Assembly: GCF_001655675.1 (NCBI RefSeq)
Contig: NZ_LYRP01000043.1
Coordinates: forward strand, 186,001 to 250,000
Source of the DNA: Mangrovibacter phragmitis
Lineage (GTDB): Bacteria > Pseudomonadota > Gammaproteobacteria > Enterobacterales > Enterobacteriaceae
Direction of reading: 5' to 3'
DNA: 64,000 nucleotides
The notes below the pieces were generated by a model. That model did not search any database, had not been told where the DNA came from, and saw nothing but the letters and a program-made list of their open reading frames with translations. The first letter of the stretch is position 1; each line of letters begins with the position of its first letter. The position numbers were made by a program, and so were the translations under genes. This document shows positions 2,904 through 28,566 of the stretch, one piece after another.

Positions 2904-2991
2904 GGAAGTGTGGCCGAGCGGTTGAAGGCACCGGTCTTGAAAACCGGCGACTCGAAAGGGTCCCAGAGTTCGAATCTCTGCGCTTCCGCCA
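2904..2991 (+). tRNA. serT: tRNA-Ser (anticodon UGA)
   Basis: An 88-nt serine tRNA with the long variable arm. The acceptor arms GGAAGTG and CGCTTCC pair, the anticodon loop CTTGAAA has anticodon TGA, the T-arm is GAGTTCGAATCTC, and an encoded CCA ends the gene. The sequence is almost identical to E. coli serT. Its 3' end is the attachment site of the downstream genomic island, and the insertion leaves the tRNA intact. Confidence 0.98.
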
Positions 2992-2992
2992 T
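2978..2992. repeat. attL: serT-end copy of the 15-bp island repeat
   Basis: CTGCGCTTCCGCCAT at the serT 3' end is repeated exactly at 28548-28562. This is the expected footprint of a tyrosine recombinase using a tRNA 3' end. Confidence 0.9.
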
Positions 2993-3056
2993 TTTTATGG
3001 CAAAATCAATAACTTACAGAATGTTTTTGATTCTGTCATGCATAAAGTAATGCATT

Positions 3057-3084: not shown

Positions 3085-3319
3085 GTATCTAAAATCCGTG
3101 TTTTTCATCAAAAATTTATCCAGTCTTAAGCCCTTCCAGCGCAACTAAATCCTTTAAAAGCAGTAATCTGATAACAGAAAACCTGCAGTCCATTTTGTAA
3201 TACTCACCAATCTTAAGAACCTGCCTGCATGAGATGCTTAGCTGCATTACGTGAATACTGGACAACATATTGTTCTGTCAGTTAAAACAACTAAAAATGG
3301 TAAAACGGATAGCACAGTA

Positions 3320-4165
3320 ATGAAACGAAGCGAACTCAGGAAAGTATTGGAAGAATGGTTTGACGTTGAACGATATGAAGCGATAAAGAAACTCACCCTA
3401 CAGCAATTCTATGTTGAGGTTGAGCGGCGTATCTTGGCCTACAAGATGTTGCTGAAAAGGGATACGTTACCGCCTCTGAACAGATTCTTATTGGATGATT
3501 ACCGCTATAAGATCCTCAGAGGCGAAATTTTGTTTAGCGGCGACACATCCACGCAGGGACACGGGCTCGCCAAAACCTATGCAGTAAATCCGACAACACG
3601 CAGTCATGCGCAATTTTATGCGAAAACCGTGGCGTTAACGGAAGCAACTCCCGAAATTTCAGTGTTAAGCCAATCTGAATTCCTGTCAGAATATTTGAAA
3701 GAGACATCGCTGACAAACCTTGCTCGGATCACTATCGATATTCATCTGGAAGAGGCTTCAACCGAAGACATCATCGAACACCTGAAAGTGCTCATTCCCC
3801 AATGGAAGAAACAGCTAAAAATGAACGATCCGGCTGTTAGAAAGTATCGCTTTGGCAAAAGCACGTTGAGAAAAATCATCGACTATCGACTCATTCCGAT
3901 GATGGATCTCATTTTTTGGGGAGCAGATAATAATGATACCAAAATATCACTTTCACTGATGTCATCGCTGTTGCATGAGAACAGCGAGAAGGATAGGGAT
4001 GAGGGAATGCTTAAGGTGACTGACTATCCGCTGGCAATGGCGTTACTGACAGACGAGAACTATCTGAAATCGTTTGAAGATTATATGATGGAAAACAATG
4101 TCTTAAAAGACACGAAGATTGTAGATCACGTCAAAGACGAGAAGAAGAAGAAAGAAGATAAGTAA
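3320..4165 (+). CDS. DUF6387-like protein of unknown function
   Basis: A 281-residue protein, or 304 if the GTG at 3251 is used. Neither start has a strong ribosome binding site; the ATG at 3320 is chosen because the N-terminal motif LEEWFDVERYEAIKKLT then sits near the start. That motif, followed by a conserved VERRILAYKMLL helix, resembles DUF6387 proteins that are common on enterobacterial integrated elements. This family call is from memory and is an inference. The C-terminus is very basic and acidic (DEKKKKEDK). It is the first gene inside the left end of the island and is followed by a hairpin at 4175-4195. No function can be given. Confidence 0.65.
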   Translation: MKRSELRKVLEEWFDVERYEAIKKLTLQQFYVEVERRILAYKMLLKRDTLPPLNRFLLDDYRYKILRGEILFSGDTSTQGHGLAKTYAVNPTTRSHAQFYAKTVALTEATPEISVLSQSEFLSEYLKETSLTNLARITIDIHLEEASTEDIIEHLKVLIPQWKKQLKMNDPAVRKYRFGKSTLRKIIDYRLIPMMDLIFWGADNNDTKISLSLMSSLLHENSEKDRDEGMLKVTDYPLAMALLTDENYLKSFEDYMMENNVLKDTKIVDHVKDEKKKKEDK

Positions 4166-4195: not shown

Positions 4196-4304
4196 GATCA
4201 CATCCATCCTCAACTATTTTTTTTCTGTTCACATACCCCCATTTTTTTCGAAAAACTCTTTTGCCAACATCCCTAAAACGCCATAAGCGAATTCGCTACT
4301 ATTG

Positions 4305-4326
4305 TCCTCGTTGAAACAACAGAGGA
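4305..4326 (+). promoter_or_regulatory. Hairpin that can hide the alpA Shine-Dalgarno sequence
   Basis: TCCTCGTTG, loop AAA, CAACAGAGGA: nine base pairs with one bulged A. The 3' arm contains the GAGGA ribosome binding site of the AlpA-like gene starting at 4335. If formed in the mRNA it would restrict translation of the regulator. Confidence 0.55.
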
Positions 4327-4334
4327 AAAAACAA

Positions 4335-4547
4335 ATGAGAAATGAAATCGCAGGTAAAAGATTAATCCGTGTTCCAGAAGTTCTGAGAAGAGTCGGATTT
4401 AGTCGAACCACAATGTATGAGCTTATCAAGGAAGGACGATTCCCGGATAAGGTAATCATAGGGGCAAGATCTGTAGCCTTTGTGGAAAGTGAGATTGATG
4501 CATGGATTGAAAATACCATTTCCGATTCACGCAGAAATAATAAATAA
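4335..4547 (+). CDS. AlpA-family excisionase-like transcriptional regulator
   Basis: A 70-residue small DNA-binding protein of the AlpA/MerR-like winged-helix group. The core RLIRVPEVLRRVGFSRTTMY followed by ELIKEGRFPDKVIIGARSVAFVESEIDAWI is the classic pattern of P4/CP4-57 regulators, which control integrase or excision genes. The upstream TTG at 4302 is in frame, but ATG 4335 has AGAGGA at good spacing. It heads a collinear run of small genes up to 6356. A family member so close to an integrase-bearing island probably acts in excision or in transcription of the island genes; this role is inferred. Confidence 0.88.
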   Translation: MRNEIAGKRLIRVPEVLRRVGFSRTTMYELIKEGRFPDKVIIGARSVAFVESEIDAWIENTISDSRRNNK

Positions 4548-5592: not shown

Positions 5593-5943
5593 ATGAAAGA
5601 GATTGTATTGAGCAGCTATGATAAAACAAAAAACCATCTTATTGCTAACATATTACAAGGATTCTGTGATGAGATATATGCCATTCATGAAGGCGATCCT
5701 GAAACAGCAATCTATATTATGAGTTGGGGAAAATTATCAGAAGCTATTTATGATGTGGTGATAACGCGTGAGATAATGAAATACTCTATCAAAAATAACA
5801 TATATGATATCAATAAAAATGATTTGAAGGAAGAGATTTTACATTGGCATCTAGAGCATATCATTGACCTTGTGTTTAAAAATATAAATCAAGATGAAAA
5901 TCAAGATCCTGTTTATTGGAAGTTAAAAATGACAGTTGTCTGA
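5593..5943 (+). CDS. Hypothetical protein (116 aa)
   Basis: A 116-residue protein with start context AAGGATGAAAAAATG. It is predicted soluble and mainly helical (ILQGFCDEIYAIHEGDPETA, EILHWHLEHIIDLVFK). It resembles the two preceding genes in size, AT-rich codon use and general composition, but no homology is obvious by eye. It is followed by a cGAAAg mini-hairpin at 5966-5977 and the truncated H-NS-like gene. Function unknown. Confidence 0.62.
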   Translation: MKEIVLSSYDKTKNHLIANILQGFCDEIYAIHEGDPETAIYIMSWGKLSEAIYDVVITREIMKYSIKNNIYDINKNDLKEEILHWHLEHIIDLVFKNINQDENQDPVYWKLKMTVV

Positions 5944-5965
5944 TATTCAGATGTAATAAGTATTC

Positions 5966-5977
5966 CCTCGAAAGAGG
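5966..5977 (+). promoter_or_regulatory. cGAAAg tetraloop mini-hairpin 3
   Basis: CCTC-GAAA-GAGG in the leader of the truncated H-NS-like gene. The 3' arm GAGGT resembles a Shine-Dalgarno sequence, but the likely start is 35 bases further on. Confidence 0.5.
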
Positions 5978-6011
5978 TAAAAAAAAGAATGATAAAACTA
6001 TGAGGTTTAAT

Positions 6012-6356
6012 ATGATTGATGAATTCCATGTTATGTACATGTACAGAAAAATCCAAGCTGAAGCGGCTACAACTGATCTAAAAATACTGGAACAGCTTTT
6101 GAAGAAGTTCCGTAAGGTGGTAGCAGAGCGCCGTGAAGAATACTATCAGGAGATTGGCGAGAAGAAGGCGCGTAAGCTCAGAGTGAAGAGGATTCTCAAG
6201 TTGATGGGAAAGGATAGAGTTTCACCAGAGGAGCTATGCTCTGCAGGCTCAGATTTGCTAAACCTTCTGTGGATCAAGGAAATACCAAATCTGAAAGAAA
6301 GCTTTGAGCCAGAGGTGGATGTTAAATCATCAAAAGAGATAGTTAAGCGGAAGTAG
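6012..6356 (+). CDS. Truncated H-NS-like protein (oligomerization domain only)
   Basis: A 114-residue protein starting at ATG 6012 with GAGG seven bases upstream (ATG 6000 is an alternative). Residues about 9-75 follow the H-NS/StpA N-terminal dimerization domain. The segment DLKILEQLLKKFRKVVAERR, then EEYYQEI, aligns with the H-NS stretch [20 protein letters not shown], and SPEELC fits the DPNELL turn. The C-terminal DNA-binding motif TWTGQGRTP is missing and is replaced by an unrelated tail ending KSSKEIVKRK. This architecture matches H-NST proteins described on E. coli pathogenicity islands, which bind H-NS and antagonise silencing. Its action here is inferred. A full H-NS paralogue lies at 22725-23123 of the same island. 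Confidence 0.75.
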   Translation: MIDEFHVMYMYRKIQAEAATTDLKILEQLLKKFRKVVAERREEYYQEIGEKKARKLRVKRILKLMGKDRVSPEELCSAGSDLLNLLWIKEIPNLKESFEPEVDVKSSKEIVKRK

Positions 6357-6415: not shown

Positions 6416-6427
6416 CCTCGAATGAGG
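6416..6427 (+). promoter_or_regulatory. cGAATg mini-hairpin 4
   Basis: CCTC-GAAT-GAGG, the same stem as at 5966-5977 but with a GAAT loop. It sits 22 bases before the likely start of the next gene at 6449. Confidence 0.5.
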
Positions 6428-6448
6428 TATAAAAAAAGGAAAATGATT

Positions 6449-7183
6449 ATGGGGCCTTTACCGATGTACTCGCACAACCTCGCAAAAACCGTTGTATTGG
6501 CTGATCCGAATGATGTCGAATCTTACCTGCAGCCGATGAACCTTAGCCAAAGCGATCTTGCTCGTATCCTTGAGCGTGGCTTGTCTGGTCGCTATTCTAC
6601 GACACAAAACCACCCCGCGACTTCCCGAGGGCAGTATTTCTACGGTGAAGGGGTAAGTGCAGCTCGTGAAATTCTTGCCCCTAAAGGATATGAGCGATTG
6701 TCATTACGAAACGTAGAATTGACCGTCAGCGATAAGGTTGCAATATATCTTTGCCGTGGCTGCGATCAGACTGGCTTTGTCCATGGCTATCCTGAGTCAC
6801 GTATGAAGAAGGGTGACTTTACTTGCGAGCTTATGGGGTTAATCCATAATAACAATCCGGGTCAGGGGGAGTTAACACTGGACGACAGCCAGCTCAAGCT
6901 AGATTTGGACCTGCCGGAAGGCGATATTATTCCCTTGCTTCCAAATAAAATCGGAAGGGACTTATGGTTTTTACTCTATGAGTTATATGAACTGGATGAG
7001 TTCAATCGGGTAGGTATCCGCGCAGAGCTATCTCGACCTGTTTCTTATAATAACAAGAATGTAGTTAATAGTTTCTCTACTCGGTTGATTCTTGATGTCC
7101 ACCAACCGGATCCAATTGTTCAAAATGGTGATGCTCCTCAGTTTACACCTGATATCGATCTCGACATTTTGAAAACAGGCTAA
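6449..7183 (+). CDS. Partner protein of the XRE/ImmA peptidase, unknown function
   Basis: A 244-residue protein that begins MGPLPMYSHN at ATG 6449, eight bases after AAGGA; in-frame ATGs at 6422 and 6443 are less well placed. No family is recognised with certainty. It has a polar N-terminal part (LSQSDLARILERGLSGRYST), a central Cys pair (LCRGC), and an acidic C-terminus (FTPDIDLDILKTG). It ends nine bases before the XRE/ImmA gene, so the two are almost certainly co-transcribed and functionally linked. Base composition is closer to the core genome than that of the small genes before it, suggesting a module acquired separately. Confidence 0.75.
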   Translation: MGPLPMYSHNLAKTVVLADPNDVESYLQPMNLSQSDLARILERGLSGRYSTTQNHPATSRGQYFYGEGVSAAREILAPKGYERLSLRNVELTVSDKVAIYLCRGCDQTGFVHGYPESRMKKGDFTCELMGLIHNNNPGQGELTLDDSQLKLDLDLPEGDIIPLLPNKIGRDLWFLLYELYELDEFNRVGIRAELSRPVSYNNKNVVNSFSTRLILDVHQPDPIVQNGDAPQFTPDIDLDILKTG

Positions 7184-7192
7184 ATATGCAAC

Positions 7193-8305
7193 ATGTTTAA
7201 TTCAGAGCGTTTATGTATAGCAAGAGAACGAAGAGGCCTGACTCAAAGAGCACTAGCTGAAGCGGCTGGGTTAACCAGCAAGACCATTTCTAACTATGAA
7301 AAAGCTGGTATCTTTGATGCGATCGCAAGCGATAGCATGGAAAGAATCTCTGCTGTCTTAGAATATCCCATTGAGTTTTTCCTCGATCGGGATGTTCCTT
7401 CGTTAACACCCGAGGCAGTCAGTTTTCGCGCAATGACAAAATTAAGTGCGCAAAAACGTGATTCAGCTCTTGGGGCTGGGAAGTTGGCGCAGGAATTATC
7501 GGCATGGATTGACGGGCAATTCAAGTTACCAAAACCTAACGTTCCTGACTGTAGCTTCGATGGCTATTCAGAGCCTGAACGTGCCGCCAGAACGGTTAGA
7601 GAAGCTTGGGGAATAGGCGAACTATCGATATCCAACATAGTTCACTTGCTTGAAGTCAATGGCATTAGAGTTTTTTCACTTGCTGAAAATTGCGTTGAGG
7701 TGGATGCTTTTTCTTTTTGGATGGACGAAAAACCTTTTGTTCTGCTGAACACAATGAAAACTCCAGAACGAAGTCGTTTTGACGCGGCGCATGAGCTTGG
7801 CCATTTAGTTCTTCATAAGCATTCATGCAACAACGGGCGTCAGGCGGAACAGGATGCAGACCGTTTTGCATCGGCATTCTTGATGCCTGAACGTAGTATC
7901 TTAGCCTCGGTTCCAAGGATGCCAAGGCTGGATCAGCTCATTTTGCTAAAGAAGAACTGGAAAGTTTCACTAGCTGCACTAGTGCGACGGACGTTTGATG
8001 TTGGGTTATCGACAGAGTGGCATTATCGGCAGCTCTCAATAGAGCTTAACCGTCGTGGTTACCGTACGGGAGAACCCCAAGGTATGCCAGAACGTGAGAA
8101 GTCATTGATTTTGGAAAAGGTCTTTTCAGCATTGCGGAATCAAGGGATAAAGCGCACTGAGATCCTCGGGCAACTTAGGTTCCCTGCTGATGAAGTCAGT
8201 GCCCTGACGTTTAACAACCATTTCTTCATGGAAGCTATTACAGGCGACGGTCCTCAATCGAATATTGAGCGTAAGCAACCTCCTCAGTTAAGCCTTGTCA
8301 AATAG
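7193..8305 (+). CDS. XRE-family regulator fused to an ImmA/IrrE-type metallopeptidase
   Basis: A 370-residue protein. Residues 1-60 form a Cro/C1-type helix-turn-helix (RERRGLTQRALAEAAGLTSK, then TISNYEKAG). The centre holds the zinc-peptidase motif RFDAAHELGHLVLHKH, with both HExxH-type histidines and Glu present, followed by EQDADRFASAFLMP, whose acidic residues supply the third ligand region. ImmA/IrrE proteases cleave repressors or antitoxins, for example in ICE induction or radiation response. Fusion with XRE usually marks a regulator that governs its own operon. The C-terminal 90 residues are of unknown role. It follows the 244-residue gene by nine bases and is closed by a hairpin at 8320-8339. 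Confidence 0.88.
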   Translation: MFNSERLCIARERRGLTQRALAEAAGLTSKTISNYEKAGIFDAIASDSMERISAVLEYPIEFFLDRDVPSLTPEAVSFRAMTKLSAQKRDSALGAGKLAQELSAWIDGQFKLPKPNVPDCSFDGYSEPERAARTVREAWGIGELSISNIVHLLEVNGIRVFSLAENCVEVDAFSFWMDEKPFVLLNTMKTPERSRFDAAHELGHLVLHKHSCNNGRQAEQDADRFASAFLMPERSILASVPRMPRLDQLILLKKNWKVSLAALVRRTFDVGLSTEWHYRQLSIELNRRGYRTGEPQGMPEREKSLILEKVFSALRNQGIKRTEILGQLRFPADEVSALTFNNHFFMEAITGDGPQSNIERKQPPQLSLVK

Positions 8306-8345: not shown

Positions 8346-9054
8346 TAGTAATCACTATTAGCTCTGTATGCTGTTCCCTAAAAATAAATACTAATACATT
8401 TTCCAGTTTCTTTTCTGTAATGAATCTGTTTTATAAGTTTCTGTTACTTTTCTGGGTTCATATTTCCGCGAAGTTATTGTTTAAGCAATCACTAAGCGTT
8501 ACAGATATCTTAGTAAAGATGAAATTGTTTTCCTTTACTTCATGGCGGCTATCGCCGCGATTCTTTATGGATAAATCCATCACTAGCAGGGATGAACCCT
8601 GTTCCAGCATTGTGATTGTTTTTGACAATCACTAAGTGCTGCGGCTATGAATATATTTTCCCTATACGTTGAAGAGCAAATGCTATATGTTGGGGGTTAA
8701 CGCTAATTTCGAACATAGGATCAATTTTATAACTGAATGATGAAACGATCTAAATACGATCCTTTTCGGCTATGCTGGAAAATATTGAAACTACCCTATC
8801 AAGATAAAAATATATTAATGTCAGAGTTAGGGCGTAGCCGTGCTTCAGCACATGAGCGTTAGCTCATAGATAGTGATGATTTTCAAATAAGGATTTTAAT
8901 GAAGTAAAAAGGAAAGCTTTGCAATAAAAAAATAAAAACCGCCCGGTTTCTTTTAATCCTCTTAAGTATTATCTCTTACTTCTTGCAAAATTAAATTCAT
9001 GAAAAATCGACCTGTAGCCCTTGCGGTATAAGGCTTATGACGAAAATTTGCGAC
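8346..9054. other. AT-rich non-coding stretch before the iterons
   Basis: About 700 bases with no convincing gene. A plus-strand frame over 8312-8635 has no ribosome binding site, starts beside the terminator and reads as low-complexity hydrophobic sequence. A small perfect hairpin GCGGC-TATC-GCCGC is present near 8545. It may be leader and origin-flanking sequence for the rep gene. Confidence 0.5.
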
Positions 9055-9138
9055 TGACTGTACGGTCAGTGTTCCTGACTCTATAGTCAGTATTCCTGAC
9101 TGTACGGTGAGCTTTCCTGACTTTGCAGTCAGTTTCTA
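9055..9138 (+). repeat. Four tandem 21-bp iterons, each an imperfect palindrome
   Basis: Units start at 9055, 9076, 9097 and 9118. The shared pattern is TGACTnTAnnGTCAGTnTTCC, and each unit contains a TGACT...GTCA dyad. The 21-bp period, two helical turns, places every unit on the same DNA face. Tandem repeats of this size directly upstream of a replication-initiator-like gene are typical Rep-binding iterons. Confidence 0.8.
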
Positions 9139-9164: not shown

Positions 9165-9298
9165 GTGCTTTAAAATATAGTCACTGGAATGCTTGCGTTT
9201 TCTAAAATATTTTCGCAGAAAAATATGCAAAAAAAACTTGATATCTATTTTGTGCATGGTATTTAATTAGAAATAAAACAATAAGAGGTAATGTCGTG

Positions 9299-10111
9299 AT
9301 GAATGAAATAGAAGTTGATTTAGATTTAGGCTTAAATCCTTTTTGCTTTGAGACTGAGATAAAGATTGAAACAAGGAAAAGAAATCTGACTGTTTCAAGG
9401 GGGACAGAACTTATTGAAAGGAAGGATACCAGCAAAACCTATTTTGCCAATATCGTACATACACAAGAGGTCGATAAAGAAGAGTTCATTAAACTCTATA
9501 CTTCACAGATAAAAGCGTATTTTGATCTAACGAAAACAGCTTACAAAGTTTTTTTTATCTTTTTACGAATATATCAGGATGCAATAGGAAAAGATCACTT
9601 TTACCTGAGTTGTAAAAAAGCCATGTCGCTTGCAGAAAAGATAGATCACTTCATCTTGTCTGAATCTATCTTTTACAGAGGGATAAAAGAACTCATTGAA
9701 AAACGTATTATTGCTAAAACCAATGAAAAAAACTGGTATTTTATAAACCCTGCTATTGTCTTCAATGGTGATCGTGCTCGCTTTGTTTCAGAGATTATAA
9801 AAAAGAAAGAAGTAATGGAAGATCAACCCGAAAATGCTGTTGGCACGGGCAGTAGAAATAGAAATACTGAAGTAAAAAACAGGTCAATTGAGTCAGTGAT
9901 AGAAGATGTTAATGACCAACAGAATATTGATTTGTTAATTGCAAGATTACAAGCTAAAAAATCCCAAAGGAAAATGATGGATAAAAATCCGAATGGATCT
10001 ATGGCTACCAAGGGAGAAATGCTTCTACCGCCAGAAGAACCGTTAGATTGGGACAATATTCATGGAGAGGACTTTTTCACAAAGATGACGTTCAGTGACC
10101 GAGTTCGTTAA
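9299..10111 (+). CDS. RepL-like replication initiator candidate
   Basis: A 270-residue protein starting at ATG 9299; the in-frame GTG at 9296 is spaced better from GAGG at 9285 and is equally possible. Residues about 65-165 look like the winged-helix core of RepL-type plasmid initiators. A helix LTKTAYKVFFIFLRIYQDA, a recognition segment SESIFYRGIKELIEKRIIA, and the diagnostic ending WYFINPAIVFNGDRARFV all fit. The C-terminal 100 residues are low-complexity and charged. The four iterons and a dyad directly upstream support a role in replication or copy control of the excised element. The family call is from motif recognition only; a plain DNA-binding regulator is the alternative. Confidence 0.7.
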   Translation: MNEIEVDLDLGLNPFCFETEIKIETRKRNLTVSRGTELIERKDTSKTYFANIVHTQEVDKEEFIKLYTSQIKAYFDLTKTAYKVFFIFLRIYQDAIGKDHFYLSCKKAMSLAEKIDHFILSESIFYRGIKELIEKRIIAKTNEKNWYFINPAIVFNGDRARFVSEIIKKKEVMEDQPENAVGTGSRNRNTEVKNRSIESVIEDVNDQQNIDLLIARLQAKKSQRKMMDKNPNGSMATKGEMLLPPEEPLDWDNIHGEDFFTKMTFSDRVR

Positions 10112-10415: not shown

Positions 10416-11981
10416 ATGGACGCAAATGATTTAAAAGAAGCTTTAATCAGAATCTTCAAAACAAGAAATTCCGGTCCATTCCTATTTGTTGGTTCTGGTT
10501 TCTCTCGGCGGTATTTAGGAATCAAAGATTGGAAAGGGCTTTTGGATAATTATTGTGTTTCAGGAAAACCATTCGAGTATTATCTAGCAGCAGGGGATTC
10601 AACTTATCCTACAGCAGCTAGACTCATTGCGGAAGACTTTAATACTACATGGTGGAGTGACGCAAAATATGCTGGGAGTCGTGAAAGATATAGTAAGAAG
10701 GTTACCGATAATACATCCGCGTTACGTTTTGAAATCTGTGATTATCTCACTGCCTCATTAGAAGTCCCGATCAAGGATAGCGAGTATCAGGACGAAATTG
10801 AAATACTTTCAAGACTCAATGTTGATGGAATAATAACAACCAACTGGGACTGTTTTCTTGAGCAGCTTTTCCCAGACTATAAAGTTTATACTGGACAGAA
10901 TGAGTTATTGTTTTCCAATCCTCAATCAATAGCAGAAATATATAAAATACACGGTAGTGCACATAAGCCTAAAAGTCTTATCTTAACTGATCATGACTAT
11001 AATGAATTTAATAACAAAAACCCTTACTTAGCAGCAAAGCTGATAACGATATTTGTGGAGCACCCTGTTGTTTTTATAGGCTATTCACTTTCTGATAAAA
11101 ACATTACTGATTTACTTGGTGCAATTTCAATATGTATTGGAAAGGATAGTATTTCACAGTTACGCAATAACTTAATCTTTATTGATAGAGAGGAAGGACT
11201 CACCGACTATTCAATATCTGAAACTTTTACAACGATCGAAAGAACACAGATACCAATAACATTAGTTAGAACTGATGATTTAAATCCTGTTTATGAAGCT
11301 ATTGAAACAAATAAAAGAAAAATTCCAGCCCGTATTCTTCGATATTGCAAAGAGCAGTTATATGAGGTGGTTAAGTCAAACTCAACAGAATCAAAAATTT
11401 ATGTAGTTGACATCGATGAGGTTGAAAAACATGATGATGTAGAGTTTGTTGTCGGCGTTGGTGTTGCTGAGGCTCGTAAAAAAGAAGAAGAGATTGGCAA
11501 GCTAGGTTATACACAAATAAACAATATAAATCTTTTTCACGATCTTTTACATGAGGATAATTCATATGATGCAAATAGCATTTTACAGAATGTTATTCCT
11601 AATGCGGGTCGATTCTCTCCGAATATAACCGTTTTTAAATACCTTAAAGAAATAGGCATTGTTGATGAAGTACAATATAGAGCATCTGAATATAATTTGG
11701 ATAAATGGGTTTTAAGAAATGACACAAGTTATCAATGTAAAGGATATTTTAGGACGTTTGTAAGAAAATTTAAGGATAAAGATACTAGATATATTATCGA
11801 GCATACCACACCAGAAGTAGCAGCAATCCATCTGCCTTTTCTGATGAATAAGCTAGATCTGACATTAGTTAAAGAGTTTTTAATTAATAACGAAGAGAAA
11901 CTGAATCCTGATAAATCAACTTATGCTAGTTATTTTAAAAAGTTAGCTTGCTTATATGATAAGCTATTACATGGTTGGTAA
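10416..11981 (+). CDS. SIR2-domain protein, probable anti-phage NADase
   Basis: A 521-residue protein. Residues 18-230 form a SIR2-type Rossmann domain: FLFVGSGFSRR (NAD-binding glycine loop), NVDGIITTNWDCFLE (residues 135-149, with TTNWD), and KIHGS with the catalytic-type His179, then VVFIGYSLSD. This is the SIR2_2 variety that occurs in defence proteins such as ThsA, DSR and SIR2-associated systems, which deplete NAD+ after phage sensing. The C-terminal 290 residues, with no clear motif, would be the sensor part. It stands alone, ends in a terminator at 11993, and is strongly AT-rich. The defence function is inferred from family and island context. Confidence 0.8.
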   Translation: MDANDLKEALIRIFKTRNSGPFLFVGSGFSRRYLGIKDWKGLLDNYCVSGKPFEYYLAAGDSTYPTAARLIAEDFNTTWWSDAKYAGSRERYSKKVTDNTSALRFEICDYLTASLEVPIKDSEYQDEIEILSRLNVDGIITTNWDCFLEQLFPDYKVYTGQNELLFSNPQSIAEIYKIHGSAHKPKSLILTDHDYNEFNNKNPYLAAKLITIFVEHPVVFIGYSLSDKNITDLLGAISICIGKDSISQLRNNLIFIDREEGLTDYSISETFTTIERTQIPITLVRTDDLNPVYEAIETNKRKIPARILRYCKEQLYEVVKSNSTESKIYVVDIDEVEKHDDVEFVVGVGVAEARKKEEEIGKLGYTQINNINLFHDLLHEDNSYDANSILQNVIPNAGRFSPNITVFKYLKEIGIVDEVQYRASEYNLDKWVLRNDTSYQCKGYFRTFVRKFKDKDTRYIIEHTTPEVAAIHLPFLMNKLDLTLVKEFLINNEEKLNPDKSTYASYFKKLACLYDKLLHGW

Positions 11982-18842: not shown

Positions 18843-20243
18843 TCAATCGTTATGATAAGCCGGTGGCTTCAATTTAGGCACCGGCTTTTTCTTGTCCGAC
18901 GCGAGTGTTGGTATGTAGTCAAGATTGCTATCTGGCAGTTTTGGCTCAACAGGACGGCTTGGAAAACGCCTGATCTCTTCCTTGGTAGGCTTGTAGTCAT
19001 CCTTGTTAAATCTGGCGCGCCTTTCATACTCAGCGCGTGAAACATAGATACCCTGAACCTCATCGAAGACATAGTTTTCAGCAATACGCTTATCATGTTC
19101 AGTATCGACTGAAACAGGAGCTGGCTTCTTCTTGGCCCAGACGAATTTCTCTCTGATATAATCTACTACCAACAGCGTGAAACGTTTGAAAATCCCATCC
19201 TGACGGGGATTAACCTGTTTCCTCTTACTTTTAACAGGAGCACGTTTAATCGCTCTTGCCGTTGAAGAACATGGTTTTTTCAGTGTAGTGCGTGTATGAG
19301 GCGCAGGAGCAACCAGAGCAGGTTTTTGCGAGTCTGAAGATGACGCTCTCCCGGTATTATCCGGGATAACAATTTCTTCCGGTTCAGCCAGTGCATGCAC
19401 TGTAAAGCTGGCAACATCAACCACGATGTCTAATGGTAAATCCTTAAAGGCAAAGTAGGCTTCAACAGCTTCTTTTTTCAGCTCATCACGTATGGCTTGC
19501 TCTGCAGCACGTTGTTCCTGAGCGGCGACAGTTCCCCAGCGGTCACGAGGAATATGAAGTATTGGATCGCGGTTTGTTTCAATAGCTTTAGCCAGCCAGA
19601 TTGCTTTCTCTTCATTGGTAGCGGAAGCGGTAGCCTGTTCAAGGGCTTCCTCATACTGAACCCTGATAGAACGGTGATCAATGCGTTCATCATAACCATA
19701 CAGGTCAAGGAACGCATTACAGATGTTCTGCCAGCCTTTACGCCAGCTATCAAGGGTTTCAGGCTTATCCCACTCACGGACCTTTTTACCAAAGCCGGTA
19801 GAAAGAACCTCACGGGTTGTTCCCATGATATGGATATGCGGGTTATGACCATTGATATCATGAATAACAACATCGGCAATGATGCCTTGCTTGGTAAAGT
19901 GCTCAAGAACAAAAGCTGCAGTGAGTTCAATGTTCTGTTCTGGTGTTAGCTCTGCGGGGAGGGCAATTTTAAATTCTTTGGCAAGACGGGCATCTTTTCT
20001 CTTCTCTGAGGCTTCAACAGCATTCCAGAGTGTTTCACTGTCAACAATCAGGTCAGGTGGAGTATTTTCAGGTGCAAAAATCTGCGCAAAGGCAAGGTCC
20101 TTTTTATGTGCTGTTTTGCGACCACACACTTCACCTGTTCTGTTATCGAAGAAAACTTTACGGTGACGATATGCAGCAGAGTTAACCGAAGACTGACCTT
20201 CGCCTCTGCTGATGTTCTCCATTTTGAAACTGTATATCGCCAT
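18843..20243 (-). CDS. mobA: MOBQ-type relaxase (MobA/MobL family)
   Basis: A 466-residue relaxase starting MAIYSFKMENISRGEGQSS, with GAGGA upstream; an in-frame start at 20264 is less likely. Motif I VNSAAYRHR supplies the nicking Tyr25, and motif III GHNPHIHIMGTTR supplies the metal-binding histidines. Such enzymes cleave oriT and pilot single-stranded DNA into the recipient through a helper transfer system. The C-terminal 200 residues are basic and proline-rich without a primase domain. The divergent intergenic region upstream holds the putative oriT, and a TraD/MobC-like gene is encoded at 22244. It makes the island potentially mobilizable. Confidence 0.88.
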   Translation of the reverse strand: MAIYSFKMENISRGEGQSSVNSAAYRHRKVFFDNRTGEVCGRKTAHKKDLAFAQIFAPENTPPDLIVDSETLWNAVEASEKRKDARLAKEFKIALPAELTPEQNIELTAAFVLEHFTKQGIIADVVIHDINGHNPHIHIMGTTREVLSTGFGKKVREWDKPETLDSWRKGWQNICNAFLDLYGYDERIDHRSIRVQYEEALEQATASATNEEKAIWLAKAIETNRDPILHIPRDRWGTVAAQEQRAAEQAIRDELKKEAVEAYFAFKDLPLDIVVDVASFTVHALAEPEEIVIPDNTGRASSSDSQKPALVAPAPHTRTTLKKPCSSTARAIKRAPVKSKRKQVNPRQDGIFKRFTLLVVDYIREKFVWAKKKPAPVSVDTEHDKRIAENYVFDEVQGIYVSRAEYERRARFNKDDYKPTKEEIRRFPSRPVEPKLPDSNLDYIPTLASDKKKPVPKLKPPAYHND

Positions 20244-20376
20244 CCAAATATTCCTCAATGCCAAATGCTGCTTTTCGTTTTACGTAAGGAAAACGCCGGG
20301 GTTGACGTTGACCTTGATTTTGTTTCCGAAGGAAATGGTTTTAGCCTGCGGCAGGCAACCGTCGGTAGACCCCACG

Positions 20377-20412
20377 GCATTAGAGCGAAGCGATAATGCG
20401 TAAGTGGGCATT
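20377..20412. other. Putative origin of transfer (oriT)
   Basis: GCATTA-GAGCGAAGCGA-TAATGC forms a 6-bp stem with GA/GA tandem mismatches, an inner GC/GC and a GAA loop. It is followed at once by GTAAGTGGGC, which resembles the RSF1010/R1162-type MOBQ nic core GTAAGTGCGC. It lies 134 bases upstream of the relaxase start, the normal place for a MOBQ oriT. Nicking position is inferred, not shown. Confidence 0.65.
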
Positions 20413-20514
20413 GCTTTATTTTTTATCGCCATAAATGGCTCAAAAAATAACAACAATGTATAAAGCTTACCTTTATTAATTAATACGAAATATATTAATC
20501 CCTGTAAAACAAAA

Positions 20515-21995: not shown

Positions 21996-22244
21996 ATGTA
22001 TAAAAATAACGATGAAGCCATCGATCTTGAGGCAAAGCGATTACTTGATAATGGAATCTATACCGATCTGGAAAAAGCGTATAGTGAAGCAGAAAAGATT
22101 ATCACAGAAATAAGAGTTGAATTTAAAAAGAAACAGGAAAAGAAAGAATTCCGTTCCCGTATTAAATCAATCAAACGAGCACTTTCAGATGATGAGTTCA
22201 GAAATAATGTTCCTTATAATCATAGAAATCAATGGAGTAAATAA
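21996..22244 (+). CDS. Hypothetical protein upstream of the TraD/MobC-like gene
   Basis: An 82-residue highly charged helical protein (MYKNNDEAIDLEAKRLLDNG; C-terminal part FRSRIKSIKRALSDDEFRNN). CAGGGAGGTTTT is an excellent ribosome binding site. Its stop overlaps the start of the next gene by one base (TAATG), so translation is coupled. It probably works with that gene in mobilization, by context only. Confidence 0.65.
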   Translation: MYKNNDEAIDLEAKRLLDNGIYTDLEKAYSEAEKIITEIRVEFKKKQEKKEFRSRIKSIKRALSDDEFRNNVPYNHRNQWSK

Positions 22245-22597
22245 TGAGTGATGATGAAATACAAAATACCTATCTAACAGGTAAAGCTTTTCAGGGTGAT
22301 AGAAGCAGGGCAGAAATAAAGAAAACTCTTGAGCAAAAAATTGCGGGAGCACAAAATAAGCTCAATTATCTTAAAGCAAAAGAAAAGAGAGATAGCAAAA
22401 AAGAAAATACACGACAAAAAATAATTCTCGGTGCAGAGGTTGCCAAGGTTTTAAATTGTGATATAAGTGAGGTAGATAAACAATTACTCTTTGGTTTGTT
22501 GTTAGAAGTTCCATCCTTACATACGCACGATATCGAAAGGTATAAAGTAAATGGACAAATCTACATTGAAAAAGTCCTCAAAAAATTCAGACCATAA
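22244..22597 (+). CDS. TraD/MobC-like mobilization accessory protein
   Basis: A 117-residue protein. The segment KAKEKRDSKKENTRQKIILG followed by AEVAKVLNCDISEVDKQLLF resembles the TraD/MobC small proteins of MOBQ mobilization modules: a basic coiled helix, then RxKI-LGA, then an acidic helix. These bind the relaxosome. It is translationally coupled to the preceding gene and stands 2 kb from the relaxase on the opposite strand. The family call is from the motif only. The short gap to 22724 has inverted arms around AGCTCT/GGGGAGCT but no gene. Confidence 0.6.
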   Translation: MSDDEIQNTYLTGKAFQGDRSRAEIKKTLEQKIAGAQNKLNYLKAKEKRDSKKENTRQKIILGAEVAKVLNCDISEVDKQLLFGLLLEVPSLHTHDIERYKVNGQIYIEKVLKKFRP

Positions 22598-22724: not shown

Positions 22725-23123
22725 TCAGATGGCGAAATCTTCCAGAGTTTTACCATCTTCCAGTGCAGCAGTAATCGCTTTTGGTGTACGACCCTGACCT
22801 GTCCACGTCTTTTCATCGCCATTTTCATCAATGTATTTGTATTTAGCAGGACGAGGAGCACGAACAGCAGCCGGACGGGAAGATTTAGGATTAGCTAGCA
22901 GTTCTGATGGGTCAATACCATCTTCAAGCAGTTGTGTACGCAGCGCTTCAATTTTGGCCTGACGTTCAGCATTTTTTTGCAGTGCAAGTGATTCTTCTTG
23001 GCGTCGGTCTTCAACAATAGCAGTTAATTTTTCCAGCATCTCTTCCAGAGTAGCCAGATCTGTTTCTCGTGCCTGTGCGCGAAGGGTACGGATGTTATTA
23101 AGTGCTTTAATAGCGTCAGTCAT
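22725..23123 (-). CDS. H-NS-family nucleoid-associated protein (island paralogue)
   Basis: A complete 132-residue H-NS paralogue. It has the N-terminal oligomerization domain NNIRTLRAQARETDLATLEE, then RRQEESLALQ and DGIDPSELL; a linker rich in Ala, Pro and Arg; and the C-terminal DNA-binding domain with KYKYIDENGDEKTWTGQGRT. H-NS proteins silence AT-rich foreign DNA. Paralogues carried on mobile elements (for example Sfh, Hfp/H-NSB) are thought to lower the cost of carriage by supplementing the host pool. The linker differs from chromosomal H-NS. It lies between the mobilization genes and the PilV-like gene, and a truncated relative is at 6012-6356. Confidence 0.93.
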   Translation of the reverse strand: MTDAIKALNNIRTLRAQARETDLATLEEMLEKLTAIVEDRRQEESLALQKNAERQAKIEALRTQLLEDGIDPSELLANPKSSRPAAVRAPRPAKYKYIDENGDEKTWTGQGRTPKAITAALEDGKTLEDFAI

Positions 23124-23305
23124 TATCTTTTATCCTGATTGTTTAAGGTCTTGAGCAGGATAACATACAAAAGACGATAATGGATAAATTCACCCCTCCT
23201 AAATTTTATTGTTAACGGTTTTTTGTGGATTATATCTTAACCAACCTTGACCTCTTTTTTATTTTTGTTAATTGATATGTACGTGAAACAAAAAGGACGA
23301 TGAAA

Positions 23306-24652
23306 ATGAAAAAACAAAATAAGAAAGGGTTCTCATTACTGGAACTCATTTTGGTGCTGGGTGTCGGTAGTATGATGGCTTTTATGCGTTTTCAGGATAT
23401 GAAAAATGAACAGGAAATGGTGATTGCTAAGGCTGTTGGTCAACAAATGAAGCAGATAGGGGAGGCGGTCAATGGTTATATCAATATCCGCTATGACAAG
23501 CTTTCCACGCTGACATCGAGCAGCAGCCAGTCAAGTGATCCGGGTCCAAGAACGTGTGATAGTTCTGGTTGTGAAATCACTTATCAGACGCTTATTAATG
23601 AAGGGTTATTGCCAGCATCATATACCGGGGTAAATGCCCAGAAATCCTCTTATAAGATACTGCTAAAACGTTCAGGTATTACGCCTAACTATGTGGTTAA
23701 TGGCTTAATCACAACAACTTTACCTTGGAGTGAGGGCGGAAAATTTCGCTACGATTTATTAGGTAAGGCTATGCAGGAAGCTGGTATTGATAGTGGAATG
23801 ACACAATCAGCATCTGTGGCATCAGGGCTGCAGGGGGCGTGGAAAGAAACTTCAATAAATTACAGTAATATCGCCAGTGCAGGCCTTATGGCATATCGCG
23901 TTGGATATGATTCTGCAATGTATTCGGTTTACCTGCGTCGTGATGGGACACTTCCTATGACAGGTGATCTGAATATGGGGGGGAATGACATTAATAATGT
24001 GAAAGATATTACAGCATCTGGAACAGCAACTGTAGCAACATTAAAATCAACAGGAGCAACAACCGTTGGTTCAACACTTACCGTTGGAGGTGCTCTTAAT
24101 GCCAACAACGTTTTAACGGTAGCAGGTGTAAGTACGCTCAAAGGAGCAGCCAGTCTGAATTCCACCTTATCAGTTGCAGGGGCCAGTACACTTACTGGCG
24201 CATTAACCGTGAATAATGCAATTAATGCATCAGGGAACATCACATCCTCTGGACAGGTCAAAGGTGCTACAGTGGTTTCTACTGGACGAATGACAACAGG
24301 GGAATTTTTGCAGATTAATGGTACGGCAACAGTTGGTGCTGGATGTTCTCCTAATGGATTGCAAGGGAAAAGTAGTATTGGGGCGTTATTATCTTGTGTT
24401 AGTGGTATTTGGAAGGCTAATAATCCACAATATATGAAAGTAGGTGGTGTTTTTACTATTTATCCGGGCACGACAAAAAATCTTGGACGTTTTAAATTAT
24501 GTATTAATACATACAGAATAGATGGTCAGGAAATGGCGCTGACACAATTAATACCGACAGATAACCCTGACTCAAATGGAAATATGAACTGGCGTGCGCA
24601 TAATGGAACTCAATACTCTTCATATTACATGGGCATTCATTGCTTTATATAG
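23306..24652 (+). CDS. Orphan PilV-like type IV minor pilin/adhesin
   Basis: A 448-residue protein starting MKKQNKKGFSLLELILVLGV: a prepilin peptidase site G|FSLLE with Glu at +5, followed by the hydrophobic helix. ATG 23306 is nine bases from AAGGA; 23300 is possible. Residues about 40-210 resemble the PilV N-terminal domain of IncI1/R64-type thin pili. Residues 215-330 are beta-rich repeats (GSTLTVGGALNANNVL) like phage tail fibres. The end AGCSPNGLQGKSSIGALLSC resembles shufflon C-termini, which recognise recipient lipopolysaccharide. No other pil genes and no shufflon repeats are present. It would need a prepilin peptidase and assembly system from elsewhere. Confidence 0.85.
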   Translation: MKKQNKKGFSLLELILVLGVGSMMAFMRFQDMKNEQEMVIAKAVGQQMKQIGEAVNGYINIRYDKLSTLTSSSSQSSDPGPRTCDSSGCEITYQTLINEGLLPASYTGVNAQKSSYKILLKRSGITPNYVVNGLITTTLPWSEGGKFRYDLLGKAMQEAGIDSGMTQSASVASGLQGAWKETSINYSNIASAGLMAYRVGYDSAMYSVYLRRDGTLPMTGDLNMGGNDINNVKDITASGTATVATLKSTGATTVGSTLTVGGALNANNVLTVAGVSTLKGAASLNSTLSVAGASTLTGALTVNNAINASGNITSSGQVKGATVVSTGRMTTGEFLQINGTATVGAGCSPNGLQGKSSIGALLSCVSGIWKANNPQYMKVGGVFTIYPGTTKNLGRFKLCINTYRIDGQEMALTQLIPTDNPDSNGNMNWRAHNGTQYSSYYMGIHCFI

Positions 24653-25038: not shown

Positions 25039-25701
25039 TCAGTCCATGATAGGAGTTAATAATTTATCAAGTTCTTCATCATCTTTTATCATCCAACGAC
25101 AAAATGCGGAGTATGGATATGATTTCTTAATCATTACTTTCATTTTATTAAGTGCATTTTGCTTTTCTTCTTCTGTAGAGTCTTCGCTATAATAAACAAT
25201 CATATGTTGTGTTAGCTTATGAGTGGTTTTGACGACTAGTGTTCGTAGTGAGCTAGCTGTAAGTCTTTTATTAATTGTATTATTGTTGTTATAAATATCG
25301 TTAAGTAGCTCTGCTGTTTCAAGTGTTTTTCTATCCTGAAATTGTGGCGTGATAATAAATTTTTTTGCTTTTGGAGAAAATCCGGGAGTTAATTTAATTC
25401 TTTCCCATACACTTATTGAACAACAATCAAGAAGATTATTGTATTTCGTTAGTTTGATATTATTGCAACGTGAGCATACTAAATAAAGATTATTCCATGA
25501 GAATTTTTTTATTACATTGCCCATATGTGGTTCAAAATGCTCGATATTGATATCTAAGGGTTTTTTAGTTTCACATAAATAGCATTTTTCATGAAAACAT
25601 TCCTGTAAAGCAGAGTGGACATCATCACCGTCATATTTTTTCTGAGTTAATAGTGAACCGGGTGCGGGCATTGACCTCACTACATTGAACATAATTTTCA
25701 T
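25039..25701 (-). CDS. HNH endonuclease, PtuB-like
   Basis: A 220-residue protein with a complete HNH zinc-finger core in residues 35-85: CYLCE, then DINIEHFEPH with the catalytic His pair region, then SWNNLYLVCSRCNNIK. Its size and arrangement fit PtuB of the Septu defence system or the HNH partner of retron Ec78-type systems. It starts one base after the stop of the ATPase gene (TAGGATG), so translation is coupled. Together the two would sense phage and cut DNA or RNA. No reverse transcriptase is present in the island, so a retron is not supported. Confidence 0.8.
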   Translation of the reverse strand: MKIMFNVVRSMPAPGSLLTQKKYDGDDVHSALQECFHEKCYLCETKKPLDINIEHFEPHMGNVIKKFSWNNLYLVCSRCNNIKLTKYNNLLDCCSISVWERIKLTPGFSPKAKKFIITPQFQDRKTLETAELLNDIYNNNNTINKRLTASSLRTLVVKTTHKLTQHMIVYYSEDSTEEEKQNALNKMKVMIKKSYPYSAFCRWMIKDDEELDKLLTPIMD

Positions 25702-25702
25702 C

Positions 25703-26929
25703 CTACTCGCTTAAGTTTTTTTTCGTTTTAATTAACTTTAACTGTGCTGCATCAAGAAAAGCTTGAGTATCATTACTCATATTATCTTTTTCAGATGCAA
25801 AAGATAATATGACTTTTTCTAACTCACCGATATTTTCTGGTGTTATATTTTGAACTAAACTTTCGATGTAAGTTAGTTTATCTGTTAATGCGTGAGAATC
25901 AGGTACAACGCCGAAAATTTCCGCCATAACTACACCATATGAATATGTAGAAACATCTATAATTTGTTCATTAGTAGTAAGATCATAAATAACAGAATCT
26001 GTAACAGATGTAACTACAAATGGAGAATGAGTTGTTACGATAAATTGAATTTTTGGGAATGACTTAATGAAAAAACGTAATATTTGCTTTTGTAATGATA
26101 CGTGCAAATGAGCATCAATTTCATCAATAAAAATGATTCCCTGTATATTATCAGGAGAGACCCCCCACATTTCAACTCTCATTATTAAATCAGTATAGAT
26201 ACTTAGTATTGAAGAGTATCCAGCTGATAACGTCTGAAAGGTATATCTGTCTTTCCCATCTTGATGTAAATAAAACTTCTCATCTTTTGTATCAAATTCT
26301 AGAACTAAATCTGGATCTTCAAATAATGAGCGTAGATCTAACTGTATCTTATCAAACCATAGGTTAATACGTTTTGCTTCATTTTCATCTTTATCAAAAG
26401 CTATTGCATAGCTTTGGTTTTTCTTTAAACTCAATAAATAGCTTTCAAAGAATTGACTGCCATCTTTATCATTAGGAAAATGCTTATTTTCCTCAATAAG
26501 AACAGAGTGTTTTGGTGCTTGATTTGGTGAAGATATTGCGGATTGTCTTGTAGCGCTATGGAATCTGAGCAAAGACCGAATGTCTTTGTTGTCAATAGAC
26601 TCAATTTCGATATTAAAATCATTAAGTTCTTCTAATCTAACTTTATTTCTCTCTAACTCATTCTTATAACCATTGTAAGAACTACCATCTCGTCCAACTT
26701 TATCCATGAGGTATTTATAATGATTTATCTGGCCTATCAAGTATTCGGCGTTATTATTATTAGGGCTGTCTATTCCCTTTTTTAAATAGTTATAGATGGC
26801 TGTTATGAGACTTGTTTTTCCACAACCATTACCACCAGTGATAATCAGACTTCTTCCATCTAACTGTATATCAACTTTTTTTCTGGAGTATGGGATTGGT
26901 ATATTTATTTTAGAAATGCTGCAAAGCAT
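25703..26929 (-). CDS. AAA/ABC-type ATPase, PtuA-like
   Basis: A 408-residue SMC/ABC-like ATPase. Walker A is GGNGCGKTS (residues about 32-40), there is a coiled-coil insert (KNELERNKVRLEELNDF), then a signature-like LSAGYSSILSIYTDL. Walker B is GIIFIDEIDAHLH, followed by the H-loop FIVTTHSPFVV. This is the OLD/PtuA arrangement. The gene is directly upstream of the HNH gene with one base between them, the standard Septu order ptuA-ptuB. AT-rich. It begins close to the integrase end of the island. Substrate and trigger cannot be told from the sequence. Confidence 0.8.
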   Translation of the reverse strand: MLCSISKINIPIPYSRKKVDIQLDGRSLIITGGNGCGKTSLITAIYNYLKKGIDSPNNNNAEYLIGQINHYKYLMDKVGRDGSSYNGYKNELERNKVRLEELNDFNIEIESIDNKDIRSLLRFHSATRQSAISSPNQAPKHSVLIEENKHFPNDKDGSQFFESYLLSLKKNQSYAIAFDKDENEAKRINLWFDKIQLDLRSLFEDPDLVLEFDTKDEKFYLHQDGKDRYTFQTLSAGYSSILSIYTDLIMRVEMWGVSPDNIQGIIFIDEIDAHLHVSLQKQILRFFIKSFPKIQFIVTTHSPFVVTSVTDSVIYDLTTNEQIIDVSTYSYGVVMAEIFGVVPDSHALTDKLTYIESLVQNITPENIGELEKVILSFASEKDNMSNDTQAFLDAAQLKLIKTKKNLSE

Positions 26930-27140: not shown

Positions 27141-28382
27141 TTACTTTGTTTTGATGGAATTAGGCGCTGTACAATACCCCGCCCAATCATCCATCAACGC
27201 TACCCGTTTAGGCCATAACGTTCCACGCTGATAAGCTGCCTCTGCTTTGTCAGCCAGTTGATGTGCCAGTGCATGTTCAATAACTTCACGTTGATGGTCT
27301 GTTGTTTCACCAGCCCAATCACGAAAAGTAGAACGGAAGCCGTGTTGGGTTAAACCTGTATGGTTCATTCGCTTTAATACTGCCAGCAAAGACATATCTG
27401 GTAGCTGCCCACCACGCGGGGCAGGGAATACAAAGTTATTGTCCTTAAAGCGTGGTAAAGCCTTTAACAATCCTACAGCAGCGTCAGACAGCGGTACACG
27501 ATGTTCTCTACTGGCTTTCATTCTGCTGGCGGGAATGGTCCACGTTTTGTTCTTCAGATCAATTTCATTCCATTCAGCCCCCCGGACCTCACCAGAACGG
27601 GCAACGGTCAGGATTGAAAACTCAAGTGCTCGTGCTGAAATGCCCGCTCGTTTCTGCAGTTCAGAGATAAAGGGTTTGATCTCACTATAGGGCAGGGCTG
27701 CATGGTGCTTTTGTTGCTGCACCTTACTTGGCATTGGCAGCAGGGGCTTAAGCATACCTTTCCACGAAGCAGGGTTATCGCCCTCAAAGTATTCTTTCGC
27801 CTTGGCGTAATCAATAATGGCTTCAATACGACCACGCAGGCGGCTGGCGGTTTCATTTTTTGTTAACCAGATAGGTTCAAGTATTGCCAGTACATCAACT
27901 TTCGTGATTGAGCTGACAGGCTTTTCACCTACGACAGGGTAAGCATAGGCTTCAAGCGTTGAACGCCATTGTGCAATGTGCTTCTGGTTTTTAAGTTCCT
28001 TGGCCTTAATTTCAATAACGTCTTCAGCGCATTCGGTAAATGTCTTTCTCTTATGAGCCAGCTTTTCTTGTTCTGCTCTGGCGGCGTGTTTTTCTTCAAG
28101 TGGATTAACACCATTACGGACTTGCTTACGTAACTCACGGGCCTTATCACGGGCATCAGCTAAGGAGACTTCAGGGTAGGCACCAAGTCCCATGTTCAAA
28201 CGTCTGGGGACTGTTCTGCCTAATCTGTTTACTCTGACTCCCATTGCAATACAAAGTATCCACGAACGGGACTGACCCCGGACCCGGAGATATAAACCGT
28301 CAACGCCACCAACCGCATAAGAGCCTTCAGTTTTTAGCTTGGCAACAGCCAGTCCGGTGAGTTCTTTGGCTTTCTTTGGCAT
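27141..28382 (-). CDS. int: P4-type tyrosine integrase of the island
   Basis: A 413-residue site-specific recombinase. It has the N-terminal arm-binding domain typical of P4 integrases (DGLYLRVRGQSRSWILCI ... LGAYPEVSLADARDKARELR), a core-binding helix domain, and a C-terminal catalytic domain. That domain shows Arg in ILTVARSGEVRGAEWNEIDL, HGFRSTFRDWA (HxxR) and HALAHQLADKAEAAYQRG, which holds the second His and the nucleophile Tyr. It catalyses recombination between attP and the serT 3' end. It starts 165 bases inside the right repeat and is transcribed into the island, at the end opposite the intact tRNA. Confidence 0.95.
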   Translation of the reverse strand: MPKKAKELTGLAVAKLKTEGSYAVGGVDGLYLRVRGQSRSWILCIAMGVRVNRLGRTVPRRLNMGLGAYPEVSLADARDKARELRKQVRNGVNPLEEKHAARAEQEKLAHKRKTFTECAEDVIEIKAKELKNQKHIAQWRSTLEAYAYPVVGEKPVSSITKVDVLAILEPIWLTKNETASRLRGRIEAIIDYAKAKEYFEGDNPASWKGMLKPLLPMPSKVQQQKHHAALPYSEIKPFISELQKRAGISARALEFSILTVARSGEVRGAEWNEIDLKNKTWTIPASRMKASREHRVPLSDAAVGLLKALPRFKDNNFVFPAPRGGQLPDMSLLAVLKRMNHTGLTQHGFRSTFRDWAGETTDHQREVIEHALAHQLADKAEAAYQRGTLWPKRVALMDDWAGYCTAPNSIKTK

Positions 28383-28547: not shown

Positions 28548-28562
28548 CTGCGCTTCCGCCAT
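28548..28562. repeat. attR: right-end copy of the 15-bp serT repeat
   Basis: CTGCGCTTCCGCCAT, identical to 2978-2992, marks the right border of the island. Confidence 0.9.
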
Positions 28563-28566
28563 ATTA

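Follow-up and report, generated by a model that had tools for sequence, protein, structure and literature searches.

An integrative mobilizable element at a tRNA-Ser gene

The analysed window, 64,000 nucleotides of Mangrovibacter phragmitis DNA (contig NZ_LYRP01000043.1, positions 186,001 to 250,000), contains an island of 25.6 kb at a tRNA-Ser (TGA) gene, its integration target (2904..2991, + strand; ARAGORN). The island is bounded by 18-bp direct repeats, attL at the 3' end of the tRNA gene (2978..2995, +) and attR at the far border (28548..28565, +), which agree at 17 of 18 positions. In another genome of the genus, G075, this place is free of an island, and the empty site, where the 3' end of the tRNA runs on into CATATT, is identical to the window's right repeat (18/18). 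A second Mangrovibacter island, in genome G196, likewise lies downstream of the same tRNA-Ser region. Its integrase is 98% identical to the P4-type tyrosine integrase of the window (27141..28382, –), while the opposite end of the island carries an AlpA-type excisionase, or recombination directionality factor (4302..4547, +; Pfam PF05930, 3.2e-18), adjoined by a DUF6387 gene (3251..4165, +; PF19924, 8.5e-50). The integrase thus occupies the end far from the intact tRNA-Ser; in relatives at tRNA-Asn it adjoins the tRNA.

Between these borders lie a MobQ-family relaxase (18843..20264, –; Pfam MobA_MobL, 1.4e-55, and NCBIfam NF041496 over its cut-off), a TraD-family mobilization accessory protein (22244..22597, +; PF06412, 8.3e-16) and two H-NS homologues: a short one consisting of the H-NS N-terminal domain only, with no DNA-binding domain (5916..6356, +; PF22470, 8.2e-14), and a full-length H-NS/StpA-like protein (22725..23123, –). 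Defence-like cargo comprises a Septu pair, PtuB and PtuA (25039..26929, –; PADLOC, 2.7e-98 and 9.6e-144), an RmrT/RmrA-like pair (6422-8305) and a SIR2 gene, a PDC-S25 candidate (10416-11981). Four 21-bp iteron-like repeats (9054-9133) stand upstream of a gene for a 271-aa protein of no recognised family (9296-10111), and the two together may serve the island, once excised, as a replication unit.

A site composed of AGCCTGCGGCAGGCAACCGTCGGTAGACCCCAC, a hairpin and TAAGTGGGCATTG (20343..20413, +) lies some 130 bases upstream of mobQ and is found at the same place in 26 of the 37 island loci described below. Its flanks are almost invariant, and the hairpin occurs in five versions, the arms of each being complementary. 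In form it resembles the RSF1010 oriT, and its conservation upstream of mobQ marks it as a putative oriT. The open-licence literature yielded no published oriT for the ROD21-like island family.

Having its own relaxase and oriT-like site, with no pil genes on the island and no VirD4 in the genome, the island is best explained as an integrative mobilizable element whose backbone is of the ROD21 kind. The initial annotation had placed a PilV-like gene on an island with mobilization genes, and the relaxase, TraD, the repeat borders and the empty site in G075 bear this out.

An intact PilV-like gene with no other pilus gene

The PilV-like gene is an intact open reading frame of 450 codons (23300..24652, +), with a second in-frame ATG at 23306, the start given in the initial annotation. 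Its product has the prepilin leader MKMKKQNKKG^FSLLE, a Shufflon_N match (Pfam, E = 5e-17) and an N_methyl match (5.6e-4) slightly short of the curated cut-off, so the earlier description of a complete gene with a prepilin cleavage site stands. Leader and pilin-like anchor make up residues 1-230 (23300..23989, +), followed by a repetitive, tail-fibre-like stem (residues 231-365; 23990..24394, +). The motif CVSGIW (24395..24412, +), at the position of the R64 sfx site and constant-variable junction, then opens an exchangeable tip of PilVB type (residues 366-450; 24395..24649, +). The protein therefore shares with R64-type PilV the leader, Shufflon_N and a variable C-terminal tip at a conserved junction, and differs in lying outside any pil operon and any shufflon with rci and sfx.

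The gene had also been described as having a tail-fibre-like C-terminus. This is right for the stem, since strong PHROG matches (PHROG 523, 'tail collar fiber') cover residues 7-346 (23318-24337), but not for the last 86 residues, which are a PilV shufflon-type tip. PHROG 523 may itself include PilV-like proteins. A search of phage records with the anchor gave zero matches, and a phage origin of the anchor was rejected. The AlphaFold model (mean pLDDT 47) was too poor to use, and sequence comparison found no relative in the PDB.

No PilS or pilus-assembly gene was found in the island, in agreement with the initial annotation. A candidate PilS relic in the window was rejected, its sole match being the prepilin leader common to such proteins. 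The window's genome gave no PilS match, a weak result since the control went unmatched everywhere too; neither VirD4 nor, at E up to 1e-20, an R64-type PilN was detected there, and there was one distant secretin match (22%). It does encode one prepilin peptidase and one T2SSE-type ATPase, and processing of PilV by the host is therefore possible. An on-board shufflon was likewise rejected: we found no sfx site in the island within 3 mismatches, no Rci in the window and no silent tip cassettes, each island having a single tip.

The same isolation is seen elsewhere. Queries for PilL/M/N/O/P/Q/R/T/U drawn from three pil operons detected the true pil operons used as controls and found assembly genes near island PilVs at 0 loci. 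Nor were any found when a survey of the family, covering 392 genomes, supplied 20 more neighbourhoods, 6 of them at loci already in the first set.

The PilV anchor is conserved as an island gene

Relatives of this PilV define a clade found at 37 distinct island loci, counted with duplicates removed and with some loci cut by contig ends. MobQ is present at 26 of the 37, the same 26 that carry the oriT-like site, which confirms the co-occurrence with MOBQ islands that had been suggested as a check; a PilS-like gene lies nearby in 16. Anchor DNA was matched in 698 of 5,426 complete E. coli genomes (~13%), always on the chromosome and never on a plasmid, and a plasmid search with the anchor returned, besides distant relatives, only one misfiled chromosome and an island within a large plasmid. 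In a quick tree with long branches, a branch with full support separated the anchors of 27 island PilVs from ten pil-operon PilVs. Anchor dN/dS was ~0.1 (0.05-0.16 in the computable pairs, from Yersinia, Pectobacterium, Citrobacter and Escherichia), with dS often >1 and mostly saturated, which argues for purifying selection on the anchor.

These results bear on the possibility that the gene is no more than the chance survivor of a pil operon that was formerly whole. The island does lack pilus-assembly genes, and about half of the relatives also lack PilS, as such a remnant might. A remnant would not, however, be expected to show this dN/dS across four genera or to be intact in most loci, and the anchors form one clade rather than the product of repeated strandings, with tips exchanged with plasmid PilVs (see below). 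Because of the low dN/dS, the separate clade, the linkage to MobQ and the oriT-like site and the want of a complete pil operon at any inspected locus, the remnant reading fails, and we strongly disfavour it as very improbable. It had been put forward as the outcome to expect if homologues were always found inside complete pil operons; every locus inspected lay apart from one. Comparative evidence thus supports the view that PilV is a maintained island gene.

Tips are exchanged at a fixed junction

Comparison of the 27 island PilVs over all 351 pairs separates the two ends of the protein sharply: anchors are alike in 351/351 pairs (median 73% identity), and tips in only 17/351. The tips fall into 15 unrelated groups, each beginning at C-x-x-G-x-W; the R64 sfx site presumably codes for this motif.

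The window's tip is homologous to the recipient-recognition tips of conjugative plasmids. It matches 1,270 plasmids, 1,208 of them typed as conjugative, and is 75.6% identical to PilV of pSA20075157.1 (46/50, or 92%, over the last 50 residues) and, again at 75.6%, to PilV of a complete operon on a Salmonella diarizonae contig (45/50 over the same length). It is 57.6% identical to the segment annotated PilVB in pS84-3 and unrelated to PilVA and PilVC. The anchors of these tip-sharing plasmid and operon PilVs are ~25% identical to that of the window, and since like tips stand on anchors so little alike, tips move between pil-operon PilVs and island PilVs. By this comparison the window's PilV has a tip of conjugation type that was swapped onto an anchor specific to the islands. 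The other Mangrovibacter island has nearly the same tip (97.6% identity), although DNA identity between the two islands falls to 67% in the stem, from 94% and 96% in the parts flanking it.

The origin of the tip also helps in weighing another explanation, that PilV (with PilS where present) is an adhesin of benefit to the host, displayed by machinery that the host chromosome encodes, a type IV pilus or type II secretion, and serving adherence to surfaces or host tissue, with no part in conjugation. The window's genome has a peptidase, an ATPase and a distant secretin match that could belong to such machinery, and the authors who described the EARL islands proposed a host benefit, noting that the type IV pilus genes were less conserved than the transfer module (PMC10763509). 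Nevertheless, the tip is closely related to the mating tips of conjugative plasmids, and the gene is linked to MobQ and oriT-like sequences and occurs also on a small mobC plasmid. We therefore regard a host-benefit adhesin as unlikely, if still worth keeping in mind.

A proposed model for recipient choice by a helper-dependent island

Our preferred reading, which we hold tentatively and at slightly under an even chance, is a general one in which island PilV serves the transfer of the island as a fixed tip adhesin for mating pairs. The cell would also contain a helper, either a conjugative element whose pilus is of type IVb or assembly machinery able to use these pilins. The island prepilin would be processed and set at the tip of the helper's pilus, where its C-terminal domain would bind a sugar on the recipient surface, probably of the LPS core. 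This would keep the two cells together while the MobQ relaxase acts at the oriT-like site and passes the island on through the channel of the helper. With one tip per island, and lineages differing by swaps at the CxxGxW junction, the island population would form a distributed tip repertoire in place of an on-board shufflon. Where PilS is present as well, the island's own pilins might form a pilus with the help of borrowed machinery. The island, its linkages, conservation and selection, the tip swap and the lack of assembly genes can be read directly from the sequences, and to these the model would add display on a helper pilus, an LPS ligand, an effect on recipient choice and oriT function.

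Published work on thin pili makes such a role plausible. Supplying PilV or PilS in trans partly restores transfer of TP114 (PMC9045228) and PilV tips select recipients through LPS-core sugars (PMC10654706), and therefore an island PilV could serve a helper's pilus. The initial annotation had proposed just this, and the parts of the proposal that hold up are a maintained, mobilization-linked gene with a conjugative-type tip. Display on an IncI-type pilus did not fare as well. Identity of the island anchor to the anchors of IncI/IncK PilVs is no more than 25-28%, and that of island PilS to pil-operon PilS 24-33%, so a fit into the IncI pilus is doubtful; the window's genome has no such operon; and co-occurrence with IncI-type systems was at chance level, island PilV and R64-type PilN being found together in 3 of 19 genomes in a comparison of little power (2.2 expected, p=0.38). 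Display by an IncI pilus specifically is thus less likely than the general mating-tip model. Also counting against the mating-tip model, transfer of ROD21 apparently needed pSLT, an F-like plasmid, and its MobA homologue was dispensable (PMC3976249).

The window's own genome, with neither R64-type PilN nor VirD4 detected, yielded no helper, another point against the mating-tip model. This would suit a different use of the tip, as a lure on the recipient side: shown by an island cell that lacks a helper, it would hold potential donors and make entry of a conjugative helper likelier. Identical tip chemistry could work in both directions, and ICEKp258.2 pilV is linked to plasmid uptake and exchange in a passage of PMC4904035. 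However, a lure would have to be displayed without the helper's assembly genes, and we consider it improbable.

If the mating-tip model is correct, mobilizable islands would steer their helper's choice of recipient, going beyond passive riding, and such steering would help to account for the interspecies spread of islands such as ROD21 and ICEKp258.2. Related islands across the enterobacteria have a single tip each and differ widely in which one, as if every island brings its own recipient 'hook'. A conserved gene that descriptions of this island family have left unexplained would thereby become a testable recipient-choice factor with a predicted class of ligand, the LPS core.

Comparison with known systems

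The closest known systems are the ROD21-like (EARL) islands, such as ROD21 and ICEKp258.2, which have in common with the window's island a MobA/MobL (MOBQ) relaxase together with TraD, H-NS homologues both full and short, a P4-like integrase and an excisionase near opposite ends, and direct repeats at a tRNA 3' end (PMC6035254, PMC10763509). Of their type IV pilin-related genes the window's island has PilV but not PilS, which occurs at 16 of the 37 related loci. It differs in lying at tRNA-Ser rather than tRNA-Asn, in carrying Septu instead of type III restriction-modification, and in an integrase only 25-27% identical to those of three tRNA-Asn relatives (L026, L028 and L029). With PilV of R64/TP114-type thin pili the island protein shares the leader, Shufflon_N, the stem and a PilVB-type tip exchangeable at the same junction; unlike them it has no pil operon, rci or sfx (≤3 mismatches), a single fixed tip and an anchor only ~25% identical.

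The initial annotation knew of no described case, which was too broad. ROD21-like islands with pilV and pilS are published, their role left untested there (PMC3976249, PMC6035254, PMC10763509), a passage of PMC4904035 citing Adler 2014 already links ICEKp258.2 pilV to plasmid exchange, and SGI1 is published too (PMC5389848). As far as the literature shows, four points are new: the pattern in which tips are swapped, the conservation of an oriT-like site, the pairing of an island anchor with a tip of conjugative type, and the presence of orphan pilins on further replicons free of pil operons.

Such replicons include the plasmid pMB5632_6 and linear plasmids of ~40 kb (e.g. NZ_CP055585.1), which like the island carry PilV or PilS without pilus-assembly genes. 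They differ in being plasmids, in which mobilization genes were either of MobC type or not recognised, the linear ones having PilS only. An unrelated 5.8-kb Klebsiella aerogenes mobC plasmid (NZ_CP103670.1) has an orphan PilV of the same kind (1013-2185) with its own tip, no pilus-assembly gene and 35% identity to the window's anchor, a point in favour of the mating-tip model. The linear plasmids, from several genera, carry two orphan PilS-like pilins adjoining an H-NS gene (NZ_CP055585.1, 19983-21095), one of which is the nearest non-island relative of island PilS (~45%). It is conceivable, although we think the odds are against it, that elements dependent on a helper use orphan type IVb pilins as a general device, with unrelated hitch-hikers (ROD21-like islands, the small mobC plasmid and the linear plasmids) each bringing a tip or pilin to the helper's pilus, and their population acting as a distributed shufflon that sets the recipients reached.

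SGI1 provides the precedent, by analogy, for an island that customises its helper's mating apparatus. It too is a mobilizable island with mating-apparatus parts of its own, including an adhesin-type protein, and supplies its TraN, TraH and TraG to the helper (PMC5389848). In SGI1 these are F-type T4SS subunits used with an IncC helper, and their function is proven, whereas the window's island would contribute the tip of a type IVb pilus, a function that we infer.
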